Assembly: GCA_033439295.1 (NCBI GenBank)
Contig: JAVTLE010000021.1
Coordinates: 310,009-374,008, forward strand
Direction of reading: 5' to 3'
Source: Deuterostichococcus epilithicus
Lineage: Eukaryota > Chlorophyta > Trebouxiophyceae > Prasiolales > Stichococcaceae
Length of the DNA: 64,000 nt
Position 1 is the stretch's first letter; each line of letters begins with the position of its first letter. Below, piece by piece: positions 41,834 through 53,543 of the stretch. The translations under genes were made by a program, and so were the position numbers. A model generated the notes under the pieces. The model searched no databases. It saw only the letters and a program-made list of their open reading frames with translations, and was not told the DNA's origin.

Positions 41834-42097
41834 CTGCAGGGGCACAACCGAGACGTCTCAGCGGATGTTCAGCAGACGTGAGTGGCAAATTGACTTGCCG
41901 TGCGCCGATCGTGCATACGTCAGCGAATGCATGCTCGAGAGTCCCCAGCATGCATGTGCGAAAGACCGAAACTTCTCGGCTGACAAAGCGCTAGCAGCAG
42001 CCATCATATTGGCTTCAAATTATCAGACACCTGGCCGAGCTCATTGAGGCTGAGTCGGCAGATCAAAAGGCATCGATTCGGTGTCGGAGTTTGCTGC
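41834..42097. promoter_or_regulatory. Head-to-head region COQ9 / TrmA
   Basis: Only about 260 bases separate the first supported COQ9 exon (minus) from the first in-frame ATG of TrmA (plus), and the likely COQ9 leader exon lies inside. A shared bidirectional promoter is probable; both products may act in mitochondria. No specific motif was identified. Confidence 0.4.
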
Positions 42098-45000
42098 ATG
42101 AGCCTGGGTCTGAGGATCGGCCACAGCCGGCACATCGTTCGACCCTTTCAGACCGTCCTTTCACTCGTGTACAGCCGCCAGACCAGCTGCATCAGCATTT
42201 TCGGGCTCCCGCCACGGTGGCGGCTGCCGCAGCCCCTGAGCTGCCGGCAGGTGGCAAACAGCCAGCTCGGCGCTTTCGCTCGAACCCGCAGCGCTGCAAC
42301 CGCAACGTCGCAACCCCCACCAACGCCCCGGCCGCACAACCAGCCTGCCGGTAGATCACGCGGGACCTTGCCCTTGCATGCGGCGACGGCCATGACGGAG
42401 CAGACGCCCGTAGCGGAACTGGCGGCGGCGACGCCCGCGGCCGCGGAGCCGCCAGCGGCAGCGACGCCTGCGGCCGCGGAGCCGCCAGCGGCAGCGACAG
42501 GTGGTGATGCCTACGAAGCGCAGTTGGCGGGCAAGGTGGAGCGAGTGCGGCAGCTGTTCTCGGACTTCCAGCTGCCAGAGATTGAGGTCTTCCGCTCAGC
42601 GCCCGATCACTACCGGCTGAGGTGCAGTCTTTCCAACGTCAGCCCTCGCGTTCAGAACTTCGGTTGCAAGTTGACCAGGGGCCCTCTCCTTGACCCCTAT
42701 TTTGGCTAACCGTCAGGTCCGGCACACGTCGAGGTGTGTGCAAGGGCTTGCTCTTTCTGGTGCAGGGCGGAATTCCGCGTGTGGCACCAGGGCGATGACA
42801 CCTACTACATCATGTTTCAGAAGGTGGGCATCTGCGACGCGGCGGCGCAACGGTCCGCAGTCCTACGGGCGCACCTCTGACACATCCAACACTGGTCCTT
42901 CGCAAACGCTTTTGCCCAGCGGGCAGGCCGGCATGGCGGCAGAGCGTGCCATCAAGACCCCAGGTTGGACGTTGAACTTGAACTAAACCCTATCGCGCAA
43001 GCGCACCTGTGCAGGAGGAGGGTCGGCCCAAGCCGCGGCAGGTGCGTGTGGACGCCTTCCCCCGCGGCAGCCTGCTCATGAACGAGCTCATGGGGCTGCT
43101 CATGGAGCGGGTCGCTGCGGTCGAGGCGCTGCGCACCAAGCTGTACCAGGCCAACTTCCACACCACGCTCAGCGGGCAGGCCATGGTGCGGCCTGGACAC
43201 TTCCCTCTGCGCACCCTCCTTAGGAGTGGGATTTGCCCTCTCTGGGAGTTTTTCTCTCGGAGGCCCTCTTCTTTGGGAGCCCCCTCTTCTCGAATTTCTT
43301 TCTCTGCAATGCTGTCAGGCCGCGCGTTGGCATCATGGGTTGGTCGCCTGTTGCACAGGCTCTAAATTCTAGCGTCCCAGCGCATCATGAGCAAGAGTGT
43401 CCAAATGATGCCTCGATGATCATCTCTCGATGTATGCTACGGCATGATGAACTGGCATGCATGAGTTGTAACATGGCCATGCCAAGCAATCAAGAACTAT
43501 CTCATGATGTAGAGCAGGCAGGTCATGTTTCCCCTATGTAAGAGTTCGCTGAAGATTGTTTAAGCACGCCAATCTGCCACATGCACGGTCGTATATGCGA
43601 GCTGGGGGATCAGCGGCGCTGATGTTGCCAATCAGCTGCCGCTTCCTGCACCTCTTGACGTGTCTCTCTGGGGGATGCCTGGCCTGGCTGGGTGATCGTC
43701 TTAGTGCCCGCTCGTTGAACTGCTGATCTGGCAGTTTGTTGCTGTCAGGTCACGCTGGTGTACCACCGGCCGATTGACGCCGCCTGGGAGGAGGCTGCCA
43801 AGGACCTACGGACCTACCTTGCCAAGGTGAGCAGTTGAGGTGTTTGATGCACAATGCGGCTGGCTGCTACTGTACCGCAAAGACCACTCATGAGCCTGCT
43901 GCATAGGCTTGCCTGTCGCAAGTGCTTTGGCGGTGGCGTGGGGTGGCGGCGGTCGATCATGGCAGCTACAATTACTGTAGCAGCGGGGTGCCGCTGCACA
44001 GGCAGTACCGCCAGCTTCGCGCACGGAGTCAAATTGTTGCAGCCCTGAGCCAGTGCGTCACGCATCGGCGATCGCCGCCTCTGGCCAGCCCCATGGTTTT
44101 CGTCTGGTTTGGAAAGAGACAGCAACAGCCATTCCTCAGCCGCGCAGGCACCGTCGTGTCAGCAGCAGGAGGTCACGGTCATTGGGCGCAGCCGCAAGCG
44201 CAAGCTGGAACTGGACTGCAGCCACGTGACGGAGCAGCTGACTGTCGACGGCAAACAGTACACCTTCCGGCAGGTAGGGTTTGAGGATGGCGGCAAGGTA
44301 CTGTAGTGTTATGGCACCACAGTCAGGCCAGTGGGACTGACACTCGGGATCGTCATCAGTGCTGTGAAGCGGGGCAACTCCCGTTGCAAGTGTCCCTTCC
44401 AGGATGGCGCAGCATCACGGCCAGTCAACTACCATCACGAAACACCGGCACAAACCCTATGAGCATCTATTGCTGTACACGTCAACGTTGTCGAACACTC
44501 AATGCAGGTAGAGGGCGCATTCTCGCAGCCCAACGGCGTCATGTGCCAGCACATGCTGGCCTGGGCGCAGGCCGCGACGGCCGGCAGCGGCGCGGCGGAC
44601 CTCCTGGAACTATACTGCGGCAACGCTAACTTCACCATCCCGCTTGCGGGCAACTTCAGGTGCGCCGACACCTGCGCTGCACCCTTGTTGTTGGGGTATC
44701 CTTGTTGATAGGCCACACCCTTGTGCTACAACCAGCTTTATGCGGCCAGGCAACCTTTGGTCCGCCCCAGACATTGTGCCCTTCCAGCGCGAGGCCTGGC
44801 AGGGCGATGCACAATGGACTGCCGTGCGGTGGTCGCACGAAGTGGGCTTTGAGCACCTGCCGAGGCCTGGCATGCATGGCCGCTGCAGGCGCGTCATAGC
44901 CACGGAGGTGTCCAAAGCTTCAGTGGAGACCGCACACCACAACCTGAAGGTGCGTCCTCGCCTTCTCAGGGAAACTGGCCACAATCCTGTGTTTCGCCCA

Positions 45001-46229
45001 CCTGCAGTTGAAGCGTAGTGAATGCTCTCATAAGGAAGCCGCCACCGTATCCCTGGACTCCCTGCCCGCCATCACACAGACCTGGCTCGGGTGCGAGCCA
45101 CACTGCCCCGACGAGCAGCCCGCACTGCCCTTGCAGATCAACGGCGTGGAGAATGTGCTCGTGGCGCGCATGTCGTCTGAGGACTTCACGGCTGCGTGGC
45201 ACGAGAAGCGCAACATGCGACGGCTTCCTGGTACGCAGAAAGACAAGCTGACACAGGAAGACGGGCCTTCTTGGCGTGTAGGGTGATGTCACCTTGACCT
45301 CTTTTTCCCCGCATGCGTGCAAGCTGGGGTGTCGGCGGGAGTGAAAGTGCTGCCGGCCTGCCCCGCAGATCTGGACTGGGAGGCGGTGGACCTGCAGACC
45401 ATCCTCGTGGACCCCCCCAGGTGCTGGATTCCCCCCGGAGTGCCGAGGATGCGACGTCCCCTGCTGGTGGATGCCAGAGTGTTGATGCAGTGTCTGACGC
45501 CACCCGTCCCGGAGACCAGACCAGGTCCCTTAAGCAATAAATGCAGCTGTGTGAGGGGATGACTCTTGCAGTGTGGCCGCTACGGGTCAACCTTGGTGCG
45601 ACGCTCAGAGTTGCGCAAGGAATGGGTGCGAGCTGCATTCGATGGTTTGAGACCTGACCCAATCTGGAGTGCAGGGCGGGCCTGGACGGTGAAACGGTGC
45701 AGCTGCTGCAGGAGTTTCCGACGGTGGTATACGTCAGCTGCAACCCCATCACGCTGGCGGCCAACCTGGGAGAGATCAAGGACACGCACGTCATCAGAAA
45801 GTGCGCCCGCTTGCACAGTGACACGCTGCTGGTGGGACCGGCTGGCGGGCCGGACACAGAGGCTGCGCTTGGCTCGCTCAACTGCTGGTGTCACCGGTGT
45901 CACCCAGGGCTTGTGTGTTGCTCCACGGCGCGCCCACTGCGATCGTATCTGACCTCTGCAGGTTCGCGATCTTCGACCAGTTCCCTGGCACGGAGCACAT
46001 CGAGTGCGGCGCCTTCCTGCAGCAACGGCCCAGCTCCGCGCAAGCGGGCGTTGGCGCGGCGGCGTCCAGCGCATACGCGCCGGCAGCTGACGAAGCGGCG
46101 GCAGCGGCGCCCGCAGTGGCAGCCGCAGCAGAGTCCAGCAGCCCAGGGAAGGCTCCGATGTCGGCTGGTCAGGCAGCAGCCGCAGCAAGGGCGCCTGAGG
46201 CAGCAGCAGCATTGCCAGGCGAAGCCTAG
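42098..46229 (+). CDS. TRMA: tRNA (uracil-5-)-methyltransferase, TrmA type
   Basis: A SAM-dependent enzyme making 5-methyluridine at position 54 of the tRNA T-loop. Exons: 42098-42621, 42766-42823, 43015-43185, 43749-43826, 44169-44273, 44508-44659, 44889-44949, 45137-45230, 45369-45420, 45675-45800 and 45962-46229 (TAG); all phases close. Motifs: [20 protein letters not shown]; the SAM site [54 protein letters not shown]; the nucleophile Cys in VVYVSCNP; and the catalytic Glu in [10 protein letters not shown]. From the ATG at 42098 the protein has 562 residues; from 42392 ([10 protein letters not shown]) 464. The extra 98 residues are rich in Arg, Ser, Leu and Pro with few acidic residues, like an organelle presequence, so I chose 42098 as the outer limit. 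The bacterial enzyme has about 366. The last exon adds an Ala-rich tail of about 70 residues. Confidence 0.92.
42428..42493 (+). repeat. 33-base tandem duplication in TrmA exon 1
   Basis: Two adjacent 33-base units differing at one base, coding [11 protein letters not shown] twice in the linker before the catalytic core. A third unit begins and breaks off at 42494. It adds a disordered Ala/Pro linker and looks like recent slippage. Confidence 0.9.
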
Positions 46230-46707
46230 CAGTTCAGACCTTTTGACGCATTGCTTAATGCATTGTTCGACACTGCACCGCTGAGCTCAGTCAGGTAGGT
46301 AGGTAGTCGGGAGACTGCCGATTTATGCCGTCCACGACAGGACGGCAAAGACGACTGGTCGGGTCACGTCGCATCCTTCAGTGACTCTTATGCACGTGAG
46401 AATTTGAACAGATTGAGGATCTGGGATGATGATGATTAAGCCGGTAGGTTGGTTCCATGAACACAACCCAGTATGTTGGTACCCCTAGTCTTATGCAAGC
46501 TCAGCTGCGCCGGCACTTTCTTCATCCAGTTTGCAGGCCTGGCAACAAGTGCGATGTCTAGGTCTTGCAAGATACATGTGTGTGATACACAGAAGCTGCA
46601 CCGCCACTGGCAATTTCTTTAACAATCCGAATCGCACCTTCCTGCAACAAAATGGCTCAGGCGACAGCGCATCGCACTATCTCGACGAACCTAGCAGTAC
46701 TCAGATG
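46230..46707. other. Convergent intergenic region
   Basis: 3' flanks of TrmA (plus) and STAY-GREEN (minus). No coding signal recognised. Confidence 0.5.
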
Positions 46708-49050
46708 TCATTGCTGCCGGTCTGGTCCCGCCCACTGCTGCTCATAGGATGCGGTGCAGCATGCAGCATCCTGCTTCGGCAATGGAGGCCAGAAGTGCCG
46801 CTGCTGCAGCTGCACCCTGTGAGCATTTCTGCCGCCGAGCTCGTCTTCCCGTATGCTGCCGCTACTTCGCCTGCCGGACCCCCGCTGTGGGCGCTGGTCG
46901 TCATCGCTGCTGGACGTCACGCCCGCGCTCGCTGCCGCGGCGCTCGCTCCGCCGGCCGTCTCAGAAGCCAGCGGGCTGCTGCTCGCTGCCTGGCTGACAG
47001 CAGCCAGCTCTCGAGGCTCGTCGAGCTGATGAACTGCCGCGTGCTGGCTGCTGGGCGTGCTCCCATTGGGGTGCACACCCGATGACAGTGTAGCAGCCTG
47101 GCTGCCGGCTGCACCCTCGGCTGCACGGCTGGAGCCAGCATCGCCCACCGCATGAGTCGGCGCGCCGAGCTGACCGCTGTTGCCAGCGGCTGCCTGCCTG
47201 ATGGCAGCGTTTGCGGCCCTGAGCTGGGGCGTCGCAGCTTCAAGAGCATCCGCCGCCAGGATGTCCCGTTCTGCCGTCGCCATTGGGCCTGACGACCGCG
47301 CAGCACCTGCCACTTCCCGTTGGTCTGCCACCAGTGCCTCTGCATCTGCCGCCGCGGCCGCAAAGTCTGCCGCTGCCGCTGCCGTGTCTGTCTCTGCTGG
47401 CAGGCCGGCCGCTGCCAATGGGCTGGCCGCCGCCACGACCTTGACGGCCACCGCCGCTTCAATGCTGGGAGGTGCCCGGACGTCCATGGCCGCCATCGCG
47501 ATGTCGTCCTCGTCGACGCTGTCGTCCAAGCGCCAGCGCCCGCGCTGTAATGCGCCGCCGCCGCCGCCTGTGCCGACGCCACCGAGGAGCGGCTGTCCCG
47601 GCCGCCACGCCAGCAGCAGGCGCTGCAGGATGGAGGTGGGCACCCGGCGCCAGGTGTCTCGGAAGCCGAGACGTCCCCACTCCACCGTGCAGTGCAGGTC
47701 CTGCGTTTCGGGATGCACAGCGGCTTAATGGCCATGGTCAAAGCCCCAATAGCTTGGGCGACAACGCTGTACAGCTGTGATGTGCTGAGCACCGAGCTTC
47801 AGTCGGTTGCCCCAGACTGTAAGCTCCCGACCTGTGAACAGCCTGTGCTTCCAGATGTGCACGCACGTCCATATGCTGCCCCCCACCCCCACCCCCCCTT
47901 TTCCGGCCGCCACATCNANTCNCGCCCCACCCGAGCTTAGGCAAGTGCAACAGCACACCTGACAGCAACGGCAGTCAGGGATAGGTCCGCACCTGAAGGC
48001 TGGAATTGAAGTGCACGAACACGCGTGCATCGGCATATTCAGGGTACTCTGACAGCAGCCGCCGCTCCGCCCACGCCAGCGTATTCAATACCTGCACAGC
48101 ATGGGGCATGCAATGGCTGAGCGCCACCCACGGGCTCGCAGGCTGCAGCATCCACGGCCCAAAGCTGAGCCGAGCAAGTGCGAGTCACTGTGCAACCAGT
48201 AGGAGCCCCTGCAGCAGGCTGGTTGATGTTGGCAGAACATCGAACCTGCCCGGTGATGACAGGTCCATCGCAGCCTCAGCAGCCGCAGAAGTGAGGATGA
48301 CACAAAAGCATCCATGTGGCTTTGTGCTTTGTGCATCAGGACGCAACTTTCATTACTCATCAGTCGACTGCAGAGGCTGGCAGGAGAGCGAGGCCGCCGG
48401 TGGACGTGACATCGGCGCTGCTGCAGTCAGCTGCACGTAGTGGCACGCACCAGTGGCATCTCCCGCTTGAAGATGTAGTTTCGCAGCTGCGGCGGCGCGA
48501 GCCACCGCTCCTGGCCGCTGACATGGCAGTAGACGTGCAGCACCGGGGCACCGCCCTCCAGGGCCCACTCCGCCAACACCTCGTCCCGCAGCAGCCGGAT
48601 GTACCAGCCTGAAGGTACAGGCCGATGCTAAGGAAAGGCCCACCACAACTATCACCACTTGGCGACAGCGGCAGGTCCAATGGCAAGGGCGGGTCTAGCA
48701 CCTTGGAAGTCATGCTGCCCTCGGATGGATGTGGACTGCACTCTTCCTTGCGTTCGTTTGAGATGCAGTTGGCCGGCATTGCCGCTGTCTCTAAATCGCA
48801 TGGGCACTGCATTCAGCGCAGCGGAGACACACTCAGATACGCGAAGTGTCAGCAGCACCATACCTGACAGCTGCGGACGGTTGAATTGGCGACCGATGGT
48901 CAGCTGCAGCGCTCCCGTCAGGTCGTTGTGCGTCAGCGTGTAGCGCCGGGCCCCCAGCGGCGGCGGCGCGAGTTGCGCAAACCCTGGCTCATACGCCACC
49001 GAGAGCTTTGCGGGATTAAACGCCGGCGGGTCAAACGGCGTGCCGCATAC
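46708..49050 (-). CDS. SGR: STAY-GREEN magnesium dechelatase (5' exon unresolved)
   Basis: It removes Mg from chlorophyll a to give pheophytin a, the first committed step of chlorophyll breakdown, at the thylakoid surface. Minus exons with closed phases: 49050-48864, 48608-48451, 48091-47993 and 47700-46708 (TGA). Conserved segments: FDPPAFNPAKLSVAYEP, RRYTLTHNDLTGALQLTIG (plants have PRTYTLTHSDITAKLTLAI), FNRPQLSGWYIRLLRDEVLA, LHVYCHVSGQERWLAPPQLR, NYIFKREMPL, RRLLSEYPEYADARVFVHFN, then VEWGRLGFRDTWRRVPTS. The last exon runs on for about 330 residues; after the first 45 it is Ala/Ser-rich low complexity, far longer than in plants, and the plant Cys-rich C-terminal motif is not evident, so an unseen intron or a lineage-specific tail is possible. 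The 49050 boundary is an acceptor, so a transit-peptide exon should lie in 49.1-49.9 kb. Chlorophyllase begins about 1 kb away on the other strand. Confidence 0.92.
47917..47922. other. Ambiguous bases (N) in the assembly
   Basis: Three N bases at 47917, 47919 and 47922, next to a poly-C stretch (47870-47900) in a STAY-GREEN intron. They mark low sequencing quality and do not affect the exons. Confidence 0.95.
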
Positions 49051-50057
49051 CTGAGTGGCAATGGACCACACGTGAAATCGTTGTTGCTGTCATTCAACCT
49101 GTCATCGAGTGGCAGAGCGCCAGCGAGACACTGGGCATGCTGCCATGCAGCAGCGCGCCCATTGACATCTGATTTTGCTGCTGCTGCAGGGCTGCAGGGT
49201 CATCGTTGCCAACTGCCCAGGAGAGGCAGCTGCTGGATGACCTGCCGCAGCAAACAAAATCAGCGAATGCAGGAAGACCAATCATGCAAGCCTCACCGTC
49301 AGCCTGTGCGCCTGGCCGATGTGGGCAGCATGCGGTCTGGCTAATTGCAATCGCCCACGGTGCAGCTGACGCAGCTGCGATTGCGGCTGCTGCAGCCGAT
49401 GCACCGATGCACGCATGGCCGCAGGGCCAGTGCCTTTCTCAAACAACCATCGTGAACGACGTGGCACTGGTCGAAGGTCTGGCTGCAAATTAGCTGATCT
49501 GACCGGCTGGAAGTCAGCTTCAACGTCTCTGCATCTGCACTACTGTTGGACAATCGGGGCTGGGCGCAGGTTGCAGCTATGTGCGCTGGAGGATTAGCAG
49601 ATACGTCACGAAGCGCTGTCGACCTGTAGCAAACCCTTGCGGCAGGCCTGCTGATGGCACTACAAAGCTAATCCGATACCTTTCGCAACGCCTGGAAAGT
49701 GGCCAGGTGCAGATACTGTGTGCTCCGGCATGCATCTTTTGGCGCAAGACCCTCCTCTGGATACGCCCTGCCAGCACACCTCATCTTGAGTGCAGCGGAA
49801 TGCATTCTTGCGACCCTGTGTCATTCGTTTCGTTTGCTTGAAAGCAAGCTTCCTACAGTGCTGTTGAGGGTGTGTTTTTTGCAGCAGCAGAGGCAGGTTC
49901 GTTCGGATAGCAGCACTTCCGCAGGTGTAATAGTGCAAGAAATCGTTGCGCCAACGTAGCAGGAGCCCTGTGGCAACAGCGATACTGTGAGACCGACGTT
50001 ACCATTGCTGACAGCATTGCCGCGTGTAAGATTAGCAGTTAGCCTTGGAGCAACATC
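49051..50057. promoter_or_regulatory. Divergent promoter region of STAY-GREEN and chlorophyllase
   Basis: About 1 kb between the first supported STAY-GREEN exon (minus) and the chlorophyllase ATG (plus). The missing STAY-GREEN transit-peptide exon should be inside, so the shared promoter may be only a few hundred bases. One candidate leader is the minus frame around 49.58-49.75 kb (MHAGAHSICTWPLSRRCERY...), not proven by a splice phase. I could not pick out a specific transcription factor site. Confidence 0.5.
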
Positions 50058-53000
50058 ATGCTTGCGGCACGGCAGCTCACCAACCTGCGCGACTGGCATG
50101 GCGGTGTGTCGCGGTCAGCGCACTCCCCCATCAGACAAAATGAATCCAGTTATCGCCATGCAGCACGCCAGATCGCCTGCCAGGTGCAGCGACGGGAGGC
50201 GCAGCGGCGGGAGCTGCTGACAGCCGGGCTGCTGCTCGGCGGCGCGCTGTGCAGCCCTCTCCAGGTCAGTGTTCCGTAAACTCTCCAGCACGCATCGTCG
50301 GCTGGATTAGCGCGTCACCCAATGACAGGCGGACGACGTTGCGCTGTCACACTGCAGGCCTGGGCCGACGAAACGGCAGGCGAGCAGCAGGCCGCCAGCC
50401 TGCCGGACTACACAAAGCCCGGGCCCTTTGTACCCATGCGGTGCATTCCCCATCTTTTCTGTCGTGCATCTGCTGTGTAACGCCAAAGACACTCGCTGGA
50501 GCCGCCTACTTGATCGCCGTAGTCACACCATTCTCTTGGGTGTGCACCCGCGCCGTAAGTGCACACTTTCGCTTGATTATCTGTCCCTCCTAGCAAGCAG
50601 CAGCTGCTCGATGTGCAGGCTGCCCAAGCTTGAGCACACAGCTAGCAGTGCTTTCCCAGCATGCTTAGGCAACCAGTGCCTGCTGCGCGTGACAGCTCTG
50701 TACCCAAAGGCAGCCGGCTCAGGCAAGTCCGCCACCCTTGTACCGCAGCACGTGTTTTACCAGTTTCAGCCGATGTTTTCGGCACGTCACGTGGCCAAGC
50801 TATCGCACTCTGCATACATTGTGCAAGCTTGAGCATGGTACCTGCGAAGTGCTCTGCCAAGCACCATCATATCACACATGACACGGTTGATTGGAGCATC
50901 CATACTCCTAGTAAACTGGGTGCTATCCCTCCGCCACCGCACAGCATTTGGCACCATGCAAGCAGGTGCCAAGCCGCCGTACCCGCTGGCAATCTTCTCA
51001 GGCGGGTTTCTGGTGCCAGCTGCCAAATACCTGAGCTATGCAGAGCGTCTTGCCAGCTGGGGCTACGTGGTGCTGCTATACGACAAAGTCGAGGTTCGAA
51101 TACTTGAGCCTGTGTGATCATGCCTACAGCAGCCCTATGCAGGGCGCTGCTGTCCACAAGAGACAAGCTCAGCAGCAGCTTTCTGAACCTTCGTCCTCGA
51201 CTCATATGAATGGTCGAGTAACCCGGAGAACTCCTTTGCACATGCAACTGTTTACTTACCACGCCAGCACTCATAGTGCACCTGCAGTTATCGAGATGCA
51301 GGGTGGGGGCCTGAACACGACAGTTTACAGCAACGGGGTGCTCCTGGTTCTGGACGCAGCCGCAACGATCCCATGCAGCCTTCGAGCTGAGCAGCATCAC
51401 CGCAATGCAGGCTGGCGGCCTGGAGCTGAATTTTCTGAGCGACGTGGTGTCGGTTGCCTTCCTGCGCGACCTCATCACCTGGACCACGACAGACGCGGTG
51501 CTGTCGCAACTCACCAGCCCCGACCAGGGCGTCTACCTCTGCGGTGCGTCTGCTGTTGACTACAAGCACAGTCAATGTGCAAGGCGACAGTCCAAGACGA
51601 AAGTAGCTCACGAACCCCGACCAGGGCATCTGTCCGTGCAGTGCGTGCGCCGTTTGCCATGTGTTGCATGAGCATGCGGTCTGGCATCAGTGAGACGCTT
51701 TTGGTCAGCGGCAAGCTCAAATTGCGTGGGGGCCAAAGTGGCGGCCACAGTCAGATTCGCTGCCGCAGCGGCTTGTGCGCCCTGCCCAGCTGCTTGTGCG
51801 GGGTCGGGCCCCGGCACCAGCGAGGGGGCAGGGGTCCCATCGCTCTGTCGCCTGTTGCTGCAGCCTGCTGCGCTGCGCAGTCCATGGAGCTCGGCTGACG
51901 CGGCCGCGCTGCTGCGCCCAGGCCACTCACGGGGCGGCAAGGTCAGCGTGCTGACGGCGGCGCTGGACGAGCGGGTGACGGCGCTGTGCCTGCTGGACCC
52001 TGTCGACAACACCAAGTACGCGCCGCTGTCCGTGGACTTCCCCTCCGCCGTGGACGCCCTCAAGCGGCTGGCCATGCAGGTGCGACACCCCTAAACCCTG
52101 GACCCTAAAACCTGAACCGCTGTCCGTGGGCTTCCCCTCCGCCGTGGACGCCCTCAAGCGGCTGGCCATGCAGGTGCGATACCGGTGACTATTTGGTTGT
52201 GGTTTCAAATGTACATTCTGGGATGGGTCGTCAGTGCATGTGCCGCCTGGCCTAAATCTTTTTCCTTCCTGTGGGTGCCCTCATGCGCCTGGCCAAGCAC
52301 GTTTGGCCGAAGTTCAACTCGGAAGCCTGAACAGGCTCCGACATTGCCTGTTTGTTGGCTGTCAGAGGTGTGCTTCAGCATGTTCTTGAGGTACAGCTCT
52401 GCAGAGGCTGTTGGGGCTCATGCAATCGGGAATTGTTCTTAGCCTCCTTTCTTACTCTTGGACCCCTCTCAAATTGTCTGCAGGACCAGCCGCAGTGGGC
52501 GGTGTCATTGGCAGCGGTCAACCCTGCAAGTGGTCTGAATTCCTATGGAAGACCACTCGCGGCAAGGGCCGGTGCAGATGGCGATCGTCGACTGTGCTTC
52601 GATCAGAATACTGACCATCTCTACCTCTCTGCAGGACCAACCGCGGCGGACGGCGGTGCCAATGGCGGTGGTCGGGGGGGCGCTGTCCGCCGACTGCGCG
52701 CCGCGGGACGCCAACTATGGCCTCTTCTATGACGCCACCTCCGCACCAGCCTGGAAGGTGCCGTATGTGCTCCTTCGGCACCGCACCGCGAAGGCATACG
52801 CATTGCCGTCCGGCAGCAACACTGAGCTGCGCTGCCTTGCCGGACCAGCTGCACGTCGTGCCCAGGCGAGCATTGGCTGGCTGACGTGCCGTACGAGGCG
52901 CGGCAGCGCCAGCGCGCTCAATTTAGGAAGGCCACTTAAAGCGAGGCGCTCTGCGAGCCAGGACAGGAGAATCTGTGCTGGTGCTTGTGTCAGGAGAGTA

Positions 53001-53543
53001 CTGTGCAAGTCGATGCTGCACAGCTGACACGCCCGTCTCGATGGTGGGCAGGTGGTGCTGCCAGACACAGGCCACTTCCAATTCCTCGACGAGCAATCCA
53101 GTCTGGACCGTGCCGTGTGCGCATACGGCAGGGTTCCAGATGCCACTGTGCGCGCTTTCAGTCAGGTGAGGGCACCGCTCAATTTTCAGTTGTATTCCCG
53201 CTCCTCAGGCACGCGTGTGCCTGGGCTAGGCTTGCGCTGGGGGCCCGCATGGCATTGCAGACCCTGTGCATGCGACATTCACAGCCCAAGGTAAGCCAAG
53301 ATGCGATTTTGTCACCGGCAGGTCTAGGCGACGTGCGGCAAGTGCGCCCAGCAAGGCAGCCGGTCATAGTCGATGCTCATTATCGGCGTGCTGCAGGCGG
53401 CAGTGGTGTCCTGGGCGGAGATCATGGTCAGGCGGAGGAACGATGCTGCCGGCAGGGAGGCGCTACTGAGGGCAGCTGGCGAGCAGCTTCGGGCGGTGCT
53501 GCCGCCGGTTGTCTGCGATTTCAAGAACCTGACAGTGCTGTGA
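50058..53543 (+). CDS. CLH: Chlorophyllase with twin-arginine-like presequence
   Basis: Hydrolyses the phytol ester of chlorophyll or pheophytin; an alpha/beta hydrolase. Exons: 50058-50264, 50358-50440, one ending after YDKVE near 51091, 51411-51543, 51922-52079, 52635-52757, 53052-53165 and 53397-53543 (TGA). Lipase motif GHSRGGK holds the nucleophile Ser; Asp lies in [10 protein letters not shown]; His in [10 protein letters not shown]. Other matches are [28 protein letters not shown] and [16 protein letters not shown]. The first 72 residues form a leader: a basic, Ser-containing part, then Arg50-Arg51, the hydrophobic [12 protein letters not shown] and AWA at the exon 1/2 join, as in thylakoid-lumen Tat presequences. 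The 50440-50960 junction is not resolved; a short exon may be missing there. The introns hold partial copies of two exons (52.1 and 52.48 kb). Confidence 0.92.
52088..52185 (+). repeat. Partial exon copy preceded by telomere-like filler
   Basis: Bases from about 52122 to 52184 repeat 52024-52085, the end of chlorophyllase exon 5 including its GTGCGA donor, with a single difference in the exon part (GAC to GGC, Asp to Gly). The 30 bases between the copies read ccctaaaccctggaccctaaaacctgaacc, close to the plant/alga telomere repeat CCCTAAA. The copy also keeps a working-looking donor. Confidence 0.9.

Follow-up and report, generated by a model that had tools for sequence, protein, structure and literature searches.

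A stretch of 64,000 nucleotides from the green alga Deuterostichococcus epilithicus (hereafter the window) carries, side by side, a homologue of the STAY-GREEN Mg-dechelatases (SGR, minus strand) and a gene of the chlorophyllase family (CLH, plus strand), which are transcribed away from each other and have their modelled start codons at a distance of 641 bp. This back-to-back arrangement, proposed in an earlier note on the same DNA, has been borne out by the modelling of both genes. The window lies on contig C18 in a genome assembly of 46.8 Mb and 21 contigs. We lean modestly towards an ordinary explanation of the adjacency: SGR and CLH would be ordinary nuclear genes, both for chloroplast enzymes, that have become divergent neighbours by rearrangement of an ordinary kind in this lineage, and each would be transcribed from its own edge of the 641-bp gap, with at most a partial overlap of control.

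Identity of the two genes

By its sequence, the minus-strand gene is a STAY-GREEN Mg-dechelatase homologue, in agreement with its earlier assignment. The modelled product of 518 residues matches the Pfam family Staygreen (PF12638) with E=1.6e-39 and 135.5 bits (cut-off 27) over profile positions 2-144 of 147, and the Staygreen-domain protein in PDB 7y5y with E=9.2e-29. In the soluble bacterial enzyme AbSGR-h, a change of either D34 or D62 abolishes the activity (PMC8531759), and both aspartates are kept in the aligned columns of SGR, together with R26, Y28, T29, T31, H32, T36, R61, E63, and R95 (AbSGR-h numbering), while D114 of AbSGR-h is replaced by Glu. The numbering has been transferred via PDB chain 7y5y, for which 12 of the 12 checked residues agree in letter with that publication (PMC8531759). 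A near-complete Staygreen domain is shared with the known STAY-GREEN Mg-dechelatases (CrSGR, Arabidopsis SGR1/SGRL, and AbSGR-h), in contrast to which the protein described here continues beyond the end of the domain, near residue 199 of 518, with an Ala-rich tail of ∼300 residues. This tail is of low complexity (46708-47600). The motif P-X3-C-X3-C-X-C2-F-P-X5-P of land-plant SGR1/2 is absent from the model by eye, with one Cys pair only in the tail; the four-cysteine motif marks the land-plant SGR branch, and the Chlamydomonas SGR is likewise described as being without it (PMC7511501). From its family membership, SGR would convert chlorophyll a to pheophytin a by removal of Mg.

The plus-strand gene is, by family, a chlorophyllase. 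Its spliced product of 398 residues matches the Pfam family Chlorophyllase (PF07224) with E=7e-16 and 58.3 bits (cut-off 26) over residues 136-362 (exons 4-9). The score exceeds this cut-off by 32 bits; each of the seven other families listed falls short of its own. In the alignment to the Chlorophyllase in PDB 8fjd (E=2.9e-8), the motifs GHSRGG, DPV, CAP.D.N, and GH..LD coincide, and thereby the earlier reading of the gene as a chlorophyllase with GHSRGGK, Asp, and His holds; the residues assigned to the triad in CLH and 8fjd are those that we take to be catalytic. CLH shares with PF07224 and 8fjd the alpha/beta hydrolase core and the GHSRGG motif, and its Asp and His occupy the positions typical of the family. 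That the gene codes for a general alpha/beta hydrolase instead, as might be read from the modest 8fjd match, from two PDB chains named Lipase that match nearly as well (1.1e-6), and from a genome-wide, exon-by-exon PF07224 search that missed this gene and found nothing at E<=0.001 (probably because the CLH exons are short, as membership is clear for the spliced protein), is very unlikely in view of the wide Pfam margin and the aligned motifs. From its family, CLH is predicted to act on chlorophyll or pheophytin by cutting the phytol ester.

Copy number

The genome searches have treated the best candidates one exon at a time, and therefore a single copy is unproved for either gene and a diverged paralogue may have been missed. 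Across the 46.8 Mb, the Staygreen family gave two matches, both of them exons of this SGR gene. The CLH protein gave seven, all within the span of this gene, including one to a duplicated part of an exon within intron 6. A second chlorophyllase candidate on contig C1, found by a PF12740 match, has been rejected as a paralogue: the CLH protein is without a match there at E<=0.01, and the GHSFGG motif with its flanking exons presumably belongs to the PAF-acetylhydrolase type.

Arrangement of the pair and linkage elsewhere

In the published definition, head-to-head (bidirectional) gene pairs have transcription starts at most 1000 bp apart (PMC2648788). SGR and CLH resemble such pairs in their opposite strands and in the 641 bp between them, a distance that is measured between modelled start codons and not between mapped transcription starts. 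The gap could be short enough to house a putative two-way promoter. The repeats within it are two-copy and imperfect, and a scan of the gap has found none symmetrical enough to suggest a control element.

The earlier note knew of no described SGR-CLH pair, and none has come to light in the titles and abstract starts of open-licence literature, a scope that makes this weak evidence of novelty. The nearest arrangement among these titles is that of two SGR paralogues clustered in pitaya (PMC13116868), and no arrangement of algal SGR or CLH genes has been added by further titles and abstract starts. Among prokaryotes, 205 places have been confirmed, and the best 80 of them supplied 79 SGR loci, with flanks of up to 8 kb a side, many of which are incomplete as the loci lie on short contigs. 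Within the available flanks, a CLH-like open reading frame (ORF; at least 60 residues, phmmer E<=1) has been found at 0 of the 79 loci, while 81 SGR ORFs were recovered as the positive control; nothing therefore suggests that the linkage was inherited along with SGR. A scan of the same loci for G[HF]S.GG-like motifs returned two ORFs of 689 and 676 residues (L083 and L088), both without a CLH match. Three scans of viral contigs confirmed no relative of SGR or CLH, and a plasmid search with CLH returned four actinomycete records, which match 43-45% of its length with ∼31% identity.

Origin and meaning of the linkage

The neighbours recognised around the pair are unrelated to chlorophyll, which has been counted in favor of an ordinary rearrangement, as have the family matches and catalytic residues, the lack of other SGR or CLH matches in the searches, the prokaryotic flanks without a CLH-like ORF, the PaO-family matches on other contigs, and the imperfect repeats of the gap. 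Several observations weigh against this explanation. When 8-20 pathway genes are placed among 7,000-10,000 genes in a simulation, for which the gene numbers as well as the random order and orientation are assumptions, 0.0012-0.015 head-to-head neighbour pairs are expected by chance (0.005-0.055 for neighbour pairs of any orientation), so that chance alone is an uncomfortable account unless one allows for many pathways. The coincidence is sharpened by the fact that both families act on the same pigment and that neither gene has been matched elsewhere in the genome, and the prokaryotic control is silent on a linkage formed within algae. The low chance figure applies, for its part, to one named pathway, and the SGR-CLH pair was picked post hoc; for an observer free to spot any of hundreds of pathways, a pair of this kind would be expected somewhere in the genome.

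A more tentative possibility is a selected, co-regulated pair, in which a shared divergent promoter would turn on the removal of Mg and phytol together under stress, e.g., nitrogen starvation. The short divergent gap, two genes without other matches, the predicted reactions on one pigment, and the low a priori chance for the named gene set (0.0012-0.015) argue for it, as does the analysis of catabolites in heterotrophic Scenedesmus, which have been read as fitting a chlorophyllase route better than a pheophytinase route (PMC6943719). The Chlamydomonas SGR, however, has been described in a review as taking part in the formation of photosystem II (PSII) and not in degradation (PMC7511501), and thus a role in breakdown under nitrogen starvation should not be assumed by default. 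Arabidopsis CLHs are reported to be dispensable for chlorophyll breakdown in senescence, and CrCLH1-GFP of Chlamydomonas has been located outside the chloroplast (PMC8702186). The in vivo role of chlorophyllase is still termed a puzzle (PMC8702186). Of the chlorophyll-breakdown switch that the earlier note had suggested for the pair, the identities of both genes have thus stood, while breakdown as their common purpose has been weakened, and the co-regulated catabolic pair is left as a fair hypothesis.

The same observations on PSII can be turned into a further, rather doubtful explanation, according to which the two genes serve the maintenance of the photosystem: SGR would make pheophytin a for PSII, CLH would recycle chlorophyll during PSII repair, and their linkage would match pigment handling to thylakoid turnover. 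Besides the participation of the Chlamydomonas SGR in PSII formation (PMC7511501), this explanation draws on Arabidopsis CLH1, which protects young leaves through chlorophyll turnover (PMC8702186), and on VPL9, a Chlamydomonas protein that is annotated as a chlorophyllase, predicted to be plastidial, and contained in the VIPP1 proximity-labelling set (PMC10602608). All of this support comes from other species. On whether the pair has been selected at all, maintenance and catabolic co-regulation overlap. If the linkage of CLH to the only SGR found in the genome were conserved, it would be a genetic hint that SGR and CLH share one process in such algae.

The N-terminus of CLH and a possible import into the lumen

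Proteins that reach the thylakoid lumen by twin-arginine translocation (Tat) carry a transit peptide, which is followed by a twin arginine, a hydrophobic core, and an AxA cleavage site. The modelled N-terminus of CLH (50205-50366, exons 1-2) can be read in the same order, as a plastid transit region, RR, a hydrophobic core with its peak at residues 52-69, and AWA/D (the slash marks the putative cleavage), and is thereby suggestive of a Tat signal for the lumen. Two results count against this reading: the putative signal straddles the modelled splice joint of exons 1 and 2, and a search of Pfam and NCBIfam at E<=1 has matched no signal model to the N-terminus. The putative layout differs from that of some plant chlorophyllases, which are described as having a signal of the ER (endoplasmic reticulum) type, a plastid signal of atypical form, or no predicted signal (PMC8702186), and no lumenal chlorophyllase is described in the titles and abstract starts of the open-licence literature. 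Import of CLH into the lumen, if real, would place SGR and CLH at opposite faces of the thylakoid membrane. It is unlikely that this extends to a linked, co-controlled module, with SGR on the stroma side and a lumen-imported CLH under one divergent promoter of 641 bp, by which chlorophyll would be dismantled from both faces. A lumen-directed chlorophyllase, if true, would be a direct and testable statement of where the removal of phytol happens.

Neighbouring genes

The surroundings of the pair have been scanned from 1003 six-frame ORFs of at least 45 residues, out of which the best 70 by codon score were taken and 30 of these chosen for Pfam. Matches were obtained for five of the 30, none of them chlorophyll-related, and the other 25 were without a match. 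To the left of SGR and converging on it, two plus-strand ORFs (41984-46281), which probably form one gene, match a tRNA (uracil-5-)-methyltransferase; further neighbours are given in Table 1. A larger chlorophyll gene cluster has been considered and set aside, as none has been seen in the 30 of 1003 ORFs scanned and the PaO-family matches, five in number, lie on other contigs (C4, C6, C9, and C17) and not on C18. No match in the genome has been found for RCC reductase, with a query that matched no control genome either, nor for PF04432, which we take to be the HCAR family; both are weak results because short exons can hide family members.

Gene models

The SGR model runs on the minus strand from 49416 to 46708 and has five exons, separated by four introns of the GT-AG type. 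The interval given earlier, 46708-49050, omits the leader exon that the same reader had expected upstream, and a plausible leader can now be placed at 49416-49297 from its frame and splice sites, joined to exon 2 by a GT-AG intron of 246 bp. It probably encodes a chloroplast transit peptide, which would direct SGR to the plastid. Exon 5 has the top codon score of all ORFs in the window; for this score, 369 codons of other SGR and CLH exons served as the training set.

For CLH, the earlier coordinates (50058-53543) fit the model on the plus strand, which consists of nine exons and eight introns, seven of them GT-AG and one GC-AG. Exons 4-9 hold the family match, while exons 1-3 have been placed by their open frame and splice sites, without homology. 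A direct join of exon 2 to exon 4 is not possible in the model. Several frame-keeping middle exons with AG and GT at their borders have been listed, none of which was judged family-like, and the exon with a GC donor (50619-50722) has been preferred because its peptide resembles algal chlorophyllases. Its addition leaves the Pfam match unchanged at 7e-16 and makes the E-value to 8fjd slightly worse (from 1.1e-8 to 2.9e-8), and the choice of this exon is not proved. The following intron 3 (50723-50965) is, as modelled, of the GC-AG type with the donor CAG/GCAAGT, where the slash marks the splice point.

Table 1. Positions of the modelled exons, the region between the start codons, and further neighbours in the window
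Feature	Position	Strand	Remarks
SGR exon 1 (modelled leader)	49416-49297	minus	40 residues, basic; first in-frame ATG after stop, GT donor; no homology
SGR exon 2	49050-48864	minus	Staygreen domain, first part; YTLTHND
SGR exon 3	48608-48451	minus	Staygreen domain; RDEVLAEW
SGR exon 4	48091-47993	minus	Staygreen domain; YPEYADARVFVHF
SGR exon 5	47700-46708	minus	Final domain residues, then long Ala-rich tail up to the stop codon
Inter-start region	49417-50057	none	641 bp, GC 54%; candidate two-way promoter
CLH exon 1 (modelled)	50058-50264	plus	Putative transit region, twin arginine, hydrophobic core; first ATG, 5 codons past in-frame stop, GT donor; no homology
CLH exon 2 (modelled)	50358-50440	plus	Starts with AWADE, putative cleavage AWA/D; motif reading only
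CLH exon 3 (modelled)	50619-50722	plus	Frame kept on both sides; GC-AG intron next
CLH exon 4	50966-51093	plus	Alpha/beta hydrolase core, first strand
CLH exon 5	51411-51543	plus	Within the Pfam match
CLH exon 6	51922-52079	plus	Nucleophile motif GHSRGGK; DPVD
CLH exon 7	52635-52757	plus	Within the 8fjd alignment
CLH exon 8	53052-53165	plus	Catalytic His motif TGHFQFLD
CLH exon 9 and stop codon	53397-53543	plus	Modelled
MutS domain V ORF			Right of CLH; just below cut-off
eIF-5/eIF-2B ORF			Further left of SGR; Pfam match
FMO-like ORF			Further left of SGR; below cut-off

Intron 6 of CLH contains two partial copies of the adjoining exons. The end of exon 6 with its donor (52023-52089) recurs 94 bp downstream (52117-52183) with 97% identity over 67 bp, and this copy is a recent partial exon duplication that could act as a decoy or as an alternative exon. 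The acceptor and start of exon 7 (52615-52653) are also present 151 bp upstream (52464-52502) with 77% identity over 39 bp, perhaps as an older, second partial exon duplication.

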